Shown piece by piece: positions 59,595 to 63,422 of a stretch of DNA of 64,000 nucleotides. Every line of letters begins with the position of its first letter. Position 1 is the first letter of the stretch. The notes under the pieces are model-generated. The model was not told the origin of the DNA, did not search any database, and saw nothing but the letters and a program-made list of their open reading frames with translations. The translations under genes and the position numbers were made by a program. Source of the stretch: Dokdonella immobilis. GTDB taxonomy: Bacteria > Pseudomonadota > Gammaproteobacteria > Xanthomonadales > Rhodanobacteraceae. The stretch lies in assembly GCF_900115085.1 (NCBI RefSeq), contig NZ_FOVF01000022.1, positions 1 through 64,000 of the forward strand. Direction: 5' to 3'.

Positions 59595-60782
59595 TCAGGC
59601 CACCGAGCTCGCCGCAAACGCCTGCACGCTTGCAACGCGCTCGAGCCCCGCAGCGACATCAGCCAGAAGATCCGATCCGTCCTCGATGCCGACCGATACG
59701 CGCAGCAGGCCATCCGCGATGCCCGCCCGTTTGCGCGCCTCAGGCGCCATCGCCGCGTGCGTCATGCCGGCCGGATGGCAGATCAGGCTCTCGACGCCGC
59801 CGAGTGATTCGGCCAGGGTGAAACAACGCAGCCCCTCGACGAAGACCCTCGCCGCGGCTTCGCCGCCCTCGAGTTCGAAGCTCAGCATGGCCCCGAAGCC
59901 GGCCTGCTGGCGTTTCGCCAGCGCGTGCCCCGGATGCGTCGCGAGCCCCGGATAGTGGACGATGCCTACCGAGGGATGGCGGTCGAGCAGCTCGGCCAGG
60001 GCGCGCGCATTCGCCTCGTGCACGTTGAAGCGTGCCTTCAGCGTACGCAGCCCGCGCAGGGTCAGGTAGCTGTCGAACGGCGCGCCGGCCAGGCCGAGGC
60101 AGTTGCACCACCAGGCCAGCTTCTCGCCGAGGACCGCCTCGCGCCAAAGCACCGCGCCGCCGACGACATCGGAATGACCGTTGATGTACTTGGTCGTCGA
60201 ATGCACGACGATGTCGGCATTGAAGGCGAACGGCTGTTGCAGGATCGGCGATAGAAACGTGTTGTCGACCGCGGCCAGGGCGCCGATTGCGTGGGCCGAT
60301 TCGACGACATGGCGGATATCGGTGATGCGCAGCAGCGGATTGGACGGCGTCTCTACCCAGACCAGCTTCGGCTTTTCGGCCAGGGCCGCGGCCAGCGCCA
60401 GCGGATCATGGAAATCGACGAAGGCGACGCGGTAGAGACCACGTTGGGACTGCGCATTGAACAGGCGCCAGGTACCGCCGTAGCAATCGTGCGGCGCGAC
60501 CAGCAGGTCACCCGGTTCGAGCAGGGCCGCCACGAGGGTCACGGCGGCCATGCCGGTCGCAGTGACCACGCCGCCCTGGCCGCCCTCGAGCTCGGCGAGG
60601 GCACCCGCGAGCGTGTCGCGGGTCGGATTGCCCGAACGTGAATAGTCATACTGGCGCTTCACACCGAATCCGGCGAAGCTGAAGTTGCTCGACAGGTACA
60701 GGGGCGGCATCACCGCGCCATGGGCCGGATCGCGGTCGACGCCGGCGCGCACGGCCGTGGTGGCGAGGTTGGGAATGCTCAT
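59595..60782 (-). CDS. metB: Cystathionine gamma-synthase / O-succinylhomoserine thiol-lyase
   Basis: The 395-aa PLP enzyme joins O-acylhomoserine to cysteine or another thiol in methionine biosynthesis. It has 'YDYSRSGNPTRDTL' near residue 45, the PLP lysine in HSTTKYINGHSD, and 'CHPAGMTHAAMA' near the end, all of the Cys/Met-metabolism PLP family. MetB, MetZ and MetC share these; the co-transcribed homoserine acyltransferase supports MetB or MetZ. The start at 60782 overlaps the metX stop (ATGA). It lies 3' of the SAM-controlled metX leader. Confidence 0.9.
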   Translation of the reverse strand: MSIPNLATTAVRAGVDRDPAHGAVMPPLYLSSNFSFAGFGVKRQYDYSRSGNPTRDTLAGALAELEGGQGGVVTATGMAAVTLVAALLEPGDLLVAPHDCYGGTWRLFNAQSQRGLYRVAFVDFHDPLALAAALAEKPKLVWVETPSNPLLRITDIRHVVESAHAIGALAAVDNTFLSPILQQPFAFNADIVVHSTTKYINGHSDVVGGAVLWREAVLGEKLAWWCNCLGLAGAPFDSYLTLRGLRTLKARFNVHEANARALAELLDRHPSVGIVHYPGLATHPGHALAKRQQAGFGAMLSFELEGGEAAARVFVEGLRCFTLAESLGGVESLICHPAGMTHAAMAPEARKRAGIADGLLRVSVGIEDGSDLLADVAAGLERVASVQAFAASSVA

Positions 60783-61768
60783 GCCGGGATCTCCGCTGAC
60801 AGACAGGACTGGATGATGGTGGCGATCGCGCCTTCTTCCTTGAGGAATGCGTCGTGCCCGAATGGCGACGTAATGCGGACCAGTTCGGCATGGCTGCCGA
60901 TGCGGCGGACGAATTCCCTGGCCAGCGCAAGCGGAACCAGCAGGTCCTCGTCGATGGCGACGACGGTAGTCGCCGCCGCGATCGTCTCCGGTTCGCACAG
61001 GTGGTGGTCGAGCGAGCGCGACAGACACAGGAAACTCGCGGCGCTGAAGCGCGAAGCGAAGCGCTCGCCGTGCGCGACGAGCCAGCCGAGCACGCCGCTG
61101 GACGGATCGGACTCACCGAATCGATCCTCGAGTTCGCCGGGCGTGCGATAGCCGAGCACGGCGAGCTGGCGGGCACGGACCAAGGCGTCGCGTCGACCGT
61201 GCTTCGTCGTCGCCGACTCGATGCCGGCGCGCTGCAGGGTGCGCAAGGCCAGCGCCCACGGGCTGGCCCGGTGTGCCGCGCCGATCGCGATCAGGCGTCC
61301 CAGACGATGACCGAGAAGACCGGCAAGACACTGCCCGACACAGGCACCATAGGAGGCGCCGACCACGGCGTCGACCCGGCCGATGCCGAGATGGTTGAGC
61401 AGGAGCAGGATCGCGTGGGCCTGGTCGATGCTGTCGACCGGCGGGAATTCACGGTCGTCGCGCGGTCCGCTCGATTCACCGGACCCGCCGAGCCAGTCGA
61501 TCGAGATCAGACGAAATCGTCGCGGATCGAGGGCCCGAGCGGGTCCGCATTGGGCCGTCCACCAGGTGCCGATGTCGCGCCCGGCGGAGATGCCGCCGAG
61601 GACGACGACGACCGGCGCCCGCTGTGGACCCCAGCTCTGCCAGGCCAGCGCACCATCGGCCAGCAGCGAGCCGCAGGCGAGCCTGAAATCGTGCAATGGA
61701 AGGATGCCGCGCCGCGCAGCGGCGCCGTCGGTATCGCCTGGATCAACGTGTTCCTGTAGTGCCGCCAT
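60779..61768 (-). CDS. metX: Homoserine O-acyltransferase (probably succinyl, MetX type)
   Basis: The 329-aa alpha/beta-hydrolase-fold enzyme activates homoserine for methionine synthesis. The nucleophile elbow is VGASYGACVGQ with Ser139; Asp is in VAIDEDLLVP and His in PFGHDAFLKEEG. The family uses either succinyl- or acetyl-CoA; xanthomonad members use succinyl-CoA, which I infer here. The gene starts at the ATG at 61768 and overlaps metB by 4 nt. Its 5' leader holds a SAM-I riboswitch behind a promoter with met boxes. Confidence 0.92.
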   Translation of the reverse strand: MAALQEHVDPGDTDGAAARRGILPLHDFRLACGSLLADGALAWQSWGPQRAPVVVVLGGISAGRDIGTWWTAQCGPARALDPRRFRLISIDWLGGSGESSGPRDDREFPPVDSIDQAHAILLLLNHLGIGRVDAVVGASYGACVGQCLAGLLGHRLGRLIAIGAAHRASPWALALRTLQRAGIESATTKHGRRDALVRARQLAVLGYRTPGELEDRFGESDPSSGVLGWLVAHGERFASRFSAASFLCLSRSLDHHLCEPETIAAATTVVAIDEDLLVPLALAREFVRRIGSHAELVRITSPFGHDAFLKEEGAIATIIQSCLSAEIPA

Positions 61769-61803
61769 GACGCCCTCTGCCGTTGCGTACAGGGAGCGGC
61801 GAC

Positions 61804-61820
61804 ACTCCGCAGCGCGGAAT
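61804..61820 (-). other. Leader hairpin between the riboswitch and metX
   Basis: ATTCCGC-GCT-GCGGAGT forms a 7-bp stem directly after the riboswitch and 36 nt before the metX ATG. No U-tract follows, so a classic intrinsic terminator is not seen. It could be part of a translational or Rho-linked switch. Confidence 0.45.
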
Positions 61821-61824
61821 GCAG

Positions 61825-61923
61825 CTCATCTCCCGGGATCAAGCCCGCTGGAGTTGGCACCGTCAGCGTTCGCTGTGGTTGCCTCGGCATCAAAGGGCCA
61901 GTCCCTCCGCCGATCTCGATGAA
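61825..61923 (-). ncRNA. SAM-I (S-box) riboswitch controlling metX-metB
   Basis: Read on the minus strand, this leader has the SAM-I core: 'GGAGGGACTGGCCC' (J1/2-P2), GAGGCAACC (P2/J2-3), CGGTGCCAACTCC (P3-P4 side) and the closing P1. P1 pairs TTCATC (61923-61918) with GATGAG (61830-61825). The sequence matches the S-box consensus at the SAM-contact and kink-turn positions. It starts right after the predicted promoter and ends 56 nt before metX. High S-adenosylmethionine should lower metXB expression. Confidence 0.93.
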
Positions 61924-61931
61924 CGGGTACG

Positions 61932-61960
61932 ACTGTACTTGCAGAACGCGTGGACGTCAA
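61932..61960 (-). promoter_or_regulatory. Sigma-70-type promoter of metX-metB
   Basis: On the minus strand TTGACG (61960-61955) is followed after exactly 17 nt by TACAGT (61937-61932). Transcription would begin around 61925, at or just before the riboswitch P1 stem. The -35 hexamer overlaps the met boxes. Confidence 0.75.
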
Positions 61961-61975
61961 GACGTCTAGACGTCT
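61952..61975 (-). promoter_or_regulatory. Tandem met boxes (MetJ-type operator) at the metX promoter
   Basis: Two adjacent copies of AGACGTCT (61960-61967 and 61968-61975) equal the E. coli MetJ met-box consensus exactly. A third 8-mer, GGACGTCA (61952-61959), matches 6 of 8. Met boxes are bound as tandem arrays by MetJ with SAM as corepressor. This array covers the -35 hexamer of the metX promoter. No metJ gene is in the window. Confidence 0.82.
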
Positions 61976-61983
61976 ATTTGAAT

Positions 61984-62508
61984 TCAATCCTGACCGTAGA
62001 CGATCAGCGCATGCAGTGGCGCCGGCCACAGCCAGCGCGTCCTGCCCGCAAGCGCGGCGATCTCGATGACGACGGCGGCGCCGACGATTTCCGCCTCGGT
62101 CCGGGCGACCAGCTCACCCGCCGCAGCCAGGGTGCCGCCGGTGGCCAACACGTCATCGACGATCAGGACGCGCGTGCCCGGGCAGACCGCATCGGCGTGC
62201 ATTTCGAGACGATCCGTCCCGTATTCGAGCGCATAGTCGATGCCGATTTTCGCCGCCGGCAGCTTGCCCGGCTTGCGCAATGGCACGAAACCGCAGCCGA
62301 GCGCGGTGGCCACGGCCGCGCCGAAGATAAAGCCGCGCGCCTCGATGCCGCAGACGCAATCGACGCGCTGGTCGCGGAATGGGGCGGCCAGGAGCCGGAT
62401 CGATTCGGCGAATGGTCCGGCATTGGCCAGCAACGGGGTCAGGTCCTTGAAGCCGACGCCGGCTCTTGGAAAGTCTTCGATGTCGCGGACCCAATGGGCG
62501 ATGCTCAT
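61984..62508 (-). CDS. apt: Adenine phosphoribosyltransferase
   Basis: APRT salvages adenine to AMP using PRPP, and also recycles adenine released during SAM metabolism. The 174-aa protein has the PRPP-binding motif VLIVDDVLATGGT near residue 115, and 'GIEARGFIFGAAVA' and 'PLRKPGKLP' before it. It overlaps the DMT transporter gene by the 4-nt ATGA, and its stop is only 8 nt upstream of the met boxes of the metX promoter. Confidence 0.95.
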   Translation of the reverse strand: MSIAHWVRDIEDFPRAGVGFKDLTPLLANAGPFAESIRLLAAPFRDQRVDCVCGIEARGFIFGAAVATALGCGFVPLRKPGKLPAAKIGIDYALEYGTDRLEMHADAVCPGTRVLIVDDVLATGGTLAAAGELVARTEAEIVGAAVVIEIAALAGRTRWLWPAPLHALIVYGQD

Positions 62509-63422
62509 GCAGGCGCCTCCTCGTGCGCTTGAGACCTGCGTTCAGGTCGATGGGAACCGATGAAGATGCCCAGCATGCACAGGCCGACGCCGATCCAGTC
62601 GGGCAGCGCCGTCGGTCGCTGGAACAGCAGTACATCAAGCATGAACGACATCGCCGGCTGCAAAAGCAGCAACAGGCCGATGATCGACGCCGGCAACTGC
62701 GGGATCGCCCTGAGCAGCAGGATCCAGCCGAACACCTGGCCGACCAGAGCAAGACCCAGCAGGGCCGACCAGGTCTGCAGATCCGGCAGGGCCAGGCTGT
62801 CGCCCTCGAACAGGATGGCCAGGCCAAGCAGGCCCGCGCACTGCAGCGACATCACGCACAGCCATTGCGCGGCATGCAGGTGGACTCCGCCACTGCGTTG
62901 CGCCTGGCGCATGCTCAGCATGTAGATGGCATAGGCAATGCCGGTCAGCAGGCCGAGGGCGACGCCGAGCCGATAGCCGCCATCCAGCCGCGGCCAGTCC
63001 AGGCCGACCAGCAGGTAAAGGCCCGAGAAGGCCAGCGCGACGCCAAACAGGAAGGGAGGATGCAGACGTTCGCGGTGGAGCAGCCAGCCGGCCAGGGCCA
63101 TCACGAAGACCTGGAAGTTGGCCAGCAAGGTGGCCAGCCCGGGACCGACCCGCAGAATGCTGCGGTGCCATAGCATCAGGTCCAGGGCAAAGGCCAGTGC
63201 AGGCGCCAGCATCCACAGCAGGTGCACGCCGCGCAGGCGTTGCCAGCGTCTGAATGCAAGCAGCCCGACGAGCAGGAACAGGCCGCCGAAGGCGACGCGG
63301 TAGAACGCCGAGACAGTCGGACCGACATGGGCCAACCTGACGAAGATGCTGCTGGTGCTGATCAATGCGGCGCCCGCGATCATCTGCAGCAGCGCCGGAC
63401 GCGGCAATCGTTCGCTACTCAT
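62505..63422 (-). CDS. EamA/DMT-family membrane transporter
   Basis: The 305-aa inner-membrane protein has ten predicted spans in two EamA repeats ('LLQMIAGAALISTSSIFVRLAHVGP' at the start; 'QVFGWILLLRAIPQLPASIIGL' in the second). Members export metabolites or amino acids; the substrate cannot be assigned. The start chosen is the ATG at 63422, and a longer frame to 63446 begins with a non-conserved stretch. It overlaps apt by 4 nt. Confidence 0.88.
   Translation of the reverse strand: MSSERLPRPALLQMIAGAALISTSSIFVRLAHVGPTVSAFYRVAFGGLFLLVGLLAFRRWQRLRGVHLLWMLAPALAFALDLMLWHRSILRVGPGLATLLANFQVFVMALAGWLLHRERLHPPFLFGVALAFSGLYLLVGLDWPRLDGGYRLGVALGLLTGIAYAIYMLSMRQAQRSGGVHLHAAQWLCVMSLQCAGLLGLAILFEGDSLALPDLQTWSALLGLALVGQVFGWILLLRAIPQLPASIIGLLLLLQPAMSFMLDVLLFQRPTALPDWIGVGLCMLGIFIGSHRPERRSQAHEEAPA

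Follow-up and report, generated by a model that had tools for sequence, protein, structure and literature searches.

In Escherichia coli, the regulator MntR senses the same ion, manganese, as the mntP riboswitch. Transcriptional regulators and a translational riboswitch are combined on mntP (PMC11647493; this and the following papers are cited from excerpts). Among systems sensing S-adenosylmethionine (SAM), the MetJ regulon of Enterobacteriales and allies comprises methionine genes with tandem AGACGTCT boxes at their promoters (PMC4239095; E. coli structures e.g. 1cma). In the excerpt of PMC4239095, MetJ is listed in six gammaproteobacterial groups and not in the four Xanthomonadales covered; for Xanthomonadales the same paper describes the SamR regulon. 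Xanthomonas campestris is without metJ and its met promoter is unresponsive to methionine (PMC6230763), for which reason a promoter layer cannot be taken as given in this order. In contrast to PMC6230763, the introduction of PMC7270179 presents the system of E. coli as one that Xanthomonas has conserved; SamR goes unmentioned in the excerpt of PMC7270179. In the Xanthomonas SAM-I leader, the Shine-Dalgarno (SD) sequence remained paired when SAM was absent and was released by uncharged initiator tRNA (PMC7270179, PMC6230763), binding of this tRNA being placed in the anti-SD (PMC7270179). A pairing of MetJ with a SAM-I riboswitch was not reported in the literature searched, which mostly excluded subscription papers and leaves absence from print unproven. 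The excerpts of PMC3766115 and PMC5343134 hold nothing on such an arrangement.

In this study, we describe the metX leader of Dokdonella immobilis, located in a window of 64,000 nucleotides (contig NZ_FOVF01000022.1, positions 1 to 64,000). Judged from sequence, it is very probable that metX-metB is repressed by SAM at two levels and that MetJ boxes have replaced a SamR-type operator above a constant riboswitch. The genome belongs to the same bacterial order as X. campestris, and the locus shares with the met leader of that species a SAM-I aptamer at the transcript start and before homoserine O-acyltransferase-metB, the lack of an intrinsic terminator and the sequestration of the SD, which is predicted here (PMC7270179, PMC6230763). 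It differs from X. campestris, which is without metJ, by the presence of met boxes and of a metJ gene. Moreover, the X. campestris operon contains hom, whereas here a DUF3501 gene on the opposite strand comes after metB. As compared to mntP, the process is amino-acid synthesis instead of metal export, and both devices are expected to repress.

All elements of the leader lie on the minus strand, between apt and metX. The adenine phosphoribosyltransferase gene apt (61984..62508) has its stop 8 bases ahead of the first box. Three head-to-tail units occupy 61975-61952: box 1 (61968..61975) and box 2 (61960..61967) are perfect copies of AGACGTCT (8/8 each), and box 3 (61952..61959; TGACGTCC, 6/8) covers the -35. 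With two or more tandem 8-bp AGACGTCT-like boxes at a promoter taken as a MetJ operator, the leader presents three, at 8, 8 and 6 of 8. The -35 hexamer TTGACG (61955..61960) starts at the final base of box 2 and is separated by a spacer of 17 from the -10 hexamer TACAGT (61932..61937). The initial annotation had reported these boxes, without a strand, and their position over the -35, and both observations hold. Apart from TTGACG-17-TACAGT, no promoter-like site was called in 61500-62600, for which shuffles give 0.2 sites on average (sd 0.5). Downstream, metX (homoserine O-acyltransferase, 60779..61768) overlaps metB (cystathionine gamma-synthase, 59595..60782) by 4 bases. The best model for MetX is of the succinyl type, at 273 bits below its cut-off of 296, and the closest named MetX is that of a Dokdonella MAG (92% over residues 79-329). 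MetB, scanned with a longer start, scores 583 bits against the cystathionine gamma-synthase model (cut-off 504.55).

One might read the box repeat as the terminator of apt or as a chance palindrome. The end of apt lies 8 bases upstream and a terminator-like pattern was indeed called at the repeat, but on the plus strand only; apt is read from the minus strand, and on that strand the repeat gave no terminator call. Two overlapping matches to the 16-mer with at most three mismatches were found in the window against 0.09 expected from shuffles, a count attained in one of 100 window shuffles. AGACGTCT-type units recur in register with the -35 in 34/34 leaders of the family and are absent from the families without MetJ. 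We give this reading next to no probability and regard it as ruled out by conservation, register, shuffles and the strand of the terminator call. Transcripts reading through from apt would bypass MetJ, yet not the riboswitch.

The repressor itself was sought in the genome. A MetJ homologue was found outside the metX-metB locus, at G000:C20:24832-25080, which scores 130.2 bits against PF01340 (Pfam cut-off 25) and 134.1 bits against the NCBIfam equivalog (cut-off 110). Its residues 5-87 align with residues 6-88 of the E. coli repressor chains. An ordinary E. coli-like C-terminal part (the structures have 104 residues) was not detected, the alignment stopping at residue 87. Instead, residues 78-180 form a histone-H1-like tail (tailed MetJ at L002:1219-1764, G000:C20), which reaches 34.1 bits against the NCBIfam histone-H1-like model, below its cut-off of 80. 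Such a tail, of 48-190 residues and rich in lysine, alanine and proline, is present in all 36 Rhodanobacteraceae genomes (the present one and 35 relatives); it consists of 30-44% K/R, at most 8% D/E and 29-49% A/P. We can only guess that it adds non-specific DNA contact. Compared with the enterobacterial system, the protein is thus a Rhodanobacteraceae MetJ with a tail whose target promoter is shared with a SAM-I riboswitch. Among 274 genomes drawn evenly over the class, three including the present one were found to encode MetJ, and the other two proteins (111 and 105 residues) lack the tail. No description of a tailed MetJ was found in the literature searched.

For comparison we used 60 relatives, 36 of family f1, which we infer to be Rhodanobacteraceae, and 24 of other families. 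MetJ is encoded by 38/60, namely 36/36 Rhodanobacteraceae and 2/24 others, both of family f12. In these two f12 genomes (G046, G055; L097, L098), MetJ has 79 residues and lacks the terminal portion of E. coli MetJ, and neither a SamR-type protein nor a SAM-I match was found. SAM-I riboswitches are present in 48/60 relatives, in 34/36 Rhodanobacteraceae and 14/24 others; the Rhodanobacteraceae genomes G006 and G008, 85 and 90% complete, gave no SAM-I match. All 34 Rhodanobacteraceae SAM-I leaders carry a met-box pair matching at 13-16 of 16 (14 in G001), whereas the 16 leaders from other families reach at most 10 of 16; a best match of at least 13 of 16 occurred in 3/5000 random 90-bp stretches of related DNA. 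In each of the 34, the offset of the end of the best pair from the -35 is -1, +1, +7 or +9 bases, so that every pair falls into either of two registers of the 8-bp repeat, and the TTGAC of the -35 stands at a constant place relative to the boxes. The initial annotation had tied its proposal to a metJ gene in the genome and to conservation of the array in relatives, and both are found.

In the leaders of other families, another operator takes this position. A 24-bp ATC...GAT palindrome lies directly next to the -35 in 11/16 non-Rhodanobacteraceae leaders, with scores of 28.5-36.5 on a matrix trained on nine leaders (G039b and G050 were held out); five of the 16 have neither operator. Two genomes of family f5 (G039, G050) have two SAM-I riboswitches each, with the palindrome at one of each pair. 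The palindrome matches the motif and the targets given for SamR in PMC4239095, and we named it SamR because of this match and of the gene's place before metH. The SamR-type protein, a fusion of ArsR and methyltransferase, is encoded by 56/60 relatives, including 36/36 Rhodanobacteraceae.

It could therefore be SamR instead of MetJ which acts at the metX promoter, the boxes being incidental, since samR occurs in every Rhodanobacteraceae genome and SamR-type sites precede samR, metF and metK in the present genome. This we consider highly improbable, as the D. immobilis metX leader scores -13.4 for the 24-bp operator and none of the 34 Rhodanobacteraceae leaders contains the palindrome (top score 3.8), against the 28.5-36.5 of the site-bearing leaders. 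The genome thus resembles the Xanthomonadales SamR regulon (PMC4239095) in its SamR-type protein and in the palindrome at samR, metF and metK, but differs from it by a met operator without a SamR-type site and with MetJ boxes instead. Among the Rhodanobacteraceae, the palindrome precedes samR in 8/8 genomes tested, metF in 12/15 and metK in 15/15, the metK sites scoring at least 14.6 against a background maximum of 7.5 in 1000 windows. Met boxes at 12 of 16 or better were found before metF in 0/15 and before metK in 5/15 Rhodanobacteraceae (background 9/2000); in some genomes metK may perhaps be under both regulators. From the palindromes at samR, metF and metK and from these met-box counts it follows that MetJ would have replaced SamR at metX-metB, not at those genes.

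Named loci were used as an additional held-out set. From 55 loci, 40 were scanned and 34 carried a SAM-I riboswitch; seven of the latter have met boxes only, 23 the SamR palindrome only, four neither and none both. The seven with met boxes come from Rudaea, other Rhodanobacteraceae or unassigned MAGs, two of them being records of the relatives G004 and G016. Those with the palindrome are mostly from Lysobacter, Arenimonas and Vulcaniibacterium, and those with neither from two Planctomycetota MAGs, an uncultured MAG and Rehaibacterium. On the Planctomycetota MAG contigs (L123, L124), SAM-I lies about 1.1-1.3 kb before a MetX relative. Most neighbouring families appear to have a SAM-I leader whose -35 bears a SamR-type operator. 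Among the Rhodanobacteraceae, MetJ boxes seem to have taken the place of this operator, with SamR retaining samR, metF and metK.

The RNA layer begins with the riboswitch. The SAM-I aptamer (RF00162; 61823..61925, minus strand) scores 83.4 bits, well over the gathering score of 44.4, in the covariance-model search that the initial annotation had proposed as a check. It is full length (model positions 1-108), the sole Rfam match in the window at gathering thresholds and the one SAM-I match in the 4.64-Mb assembly. A complete aptamer almost at the transcription start had been claimed, and the predicted start does coincide with it; only the quoted end at 61825 requires correction, since the aptamer extends 2 bases past it, to 61823. 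With promoters chosen by a simple score, the predicted transcription start deviates from the start of the aptamer by -2 to +3 bases in 34/34 Rhodanobacteraceae leaders. Between aptamer and gene, the predicted fold pairs an anti-SD CTCCC (61792..61796) in the expression platform with the GAGGG (61773..61777) of metX, which was assigned as the SD from the MetX homology start and the fold. Starts of metX were set by homology, a MetX match being available in 46/50 leaders, and that of G020 was set by hand.

How the aptamer might act is suggested by the platforms. A T5 run between aptamer and start codon is absent in 34/34 Rhodanobacteraceae leaders, and intrinsic termination by the riboswitch was ruled out on this ground. 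In the minimum-energy folds of these leaders, the SD is paired at 0.86 as compared to 0.63 with the upstream part shuffled (mononucleotide shuffles, 20 each). When the 5' side of P1 was blocked, the fold was 5.5 kcal/mol weaker and the SD was not plainly freed in the predicted refold. Together with the work on the Xanthomonas leader, the absence of T5 runs and the paired SD suggest that the RNA layer is probably translational. The riboswitch could nevertheless mainly end transcription, e.g. via Rho, and the Xanthomonas leader did weakly affect a transcriptional fusion (PMC7270179). However, that leader is described as primarily translational in the same paper, and the missing T5 runs and the SD pairing above shuffles speak in the same direction, so that we consider a riboswitch acting mainly on transcription rather unlikely. 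Near the SD hairpin, a CGC[AG]...GATG element is found in 14/26 Rhodanobacteraceae leaders outside this genus, in 6/6 leaders of families f2-f3 and in 1/1 of f11 (background 161/5000); it was seen in 0/5 leaders of f4-f6 and in 0/8 leaders of this genus.

It may also be asked whether one layer alone works, be it that the boxes bind MetJ above a relic riboswitch or the reverse. For the Xanthomonas met operon, regulation is reported to lie in the leader, with none at the promoter (PMC6230763). In the Rhodanobacteraceae, however, both elements are kept together at fixed spacing in 34/34 leaders, and the aptamers of these leaders, at 53.8-92.0 bits, are all above the cut-off; we therefore find it unlikely that a single layer operates. 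The layered control at initiation and in the leader RNA proposed by the initial annotation is thus supported at the level of sequence, by metJ, the conserved arrays and the aptamer score. For the metX leader we infer that MetJ binds, that the aptamer responds to its ligand, that expression is repressed and that the RNA layer acts on translation. At high SAM, SAM-bound MetJ would occupy the tandem met boxes, and RNA polymerase would be blocked at the -35. In transcripts escaping MetJ, the SAM-I aptamer would begin at about the first base, and SAM on the aptamer would promote the hairpin in which the metX SD is masked.

In this family, one SAM-sensing layer appears exchanged and the other kept. 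Since the riboswitch is retained while the promoter regulator, MetJ or SamR, differs by family, the contributions of each layer (range, speed, leak, noise) become comparable between sister lineages. This offers a natural experiment on why cells stack switches made of protein and of RNA that respond to one molecule. It also indicates that a regulon is divisible between two regulators, promoter by promoter, and brings to light a tailed form of the textbook repressor MetJ.

Further candidate MetJ sites were sought with a degenerate two-box pattern. With at most one mismatch it gave 171 matches in 17 Rhodanobacteraceae genomes, against 6 for the reversed pattern, and one match each for pattern and reversed pattern in four genomes without MetJ. 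Among the matches listed, 53 further sites in 11 Rhodanobacteraceae genomes were divided by a codon-composition gene call into 30 inside genes, a few of them at over-long gene starts, and 23 between genes; with 30 of the 53 inside genes, many may be due to chance. Boxes at 12 of 16 or better precede metJ itself in 28/36 Rhodanobacteraceae, 136-174 bases from the chosen start, and the remaining eight upstream regions reach 9-11 of 16, near background. Sites beside cysG and/or cysB occur in at least five genomes (G000, G012, G013, G024, G032; met-box-like sites at L036:1357-1599 on G000:C67, L168, L195, L219 and L220), that of the present genome at 14 of 16, and hint that MetJ also reaches sulfur assimilation. 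Protein families were assigned for ten neighbours of candidate sites. Aspartokinase genes lie beside sites in G005 (three boxes) and G031, among the matches listed. We give an even chance to a fuller account, in which two independent sensors of one ligand control, in series, the homocysteine-forming operon metX-metB of this family. On this account, a tailed MetJ would have ousted SamR from some of the methionine promoters (metX-metB and, as candidates, cysG/cysB and aspartokinase), SamR would have kept samR, metF and metK, and the riboswitch would have remained in place. This MetJ would be a ribbon-helix-helix repressor of new architecture, its hold on DNA altered by the histone-H1-like tail. 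Also among the matches listed, sites lie beside TonB-dependent receptors in G026 and G029 and about 330 bases from leuA in G013 and G029.
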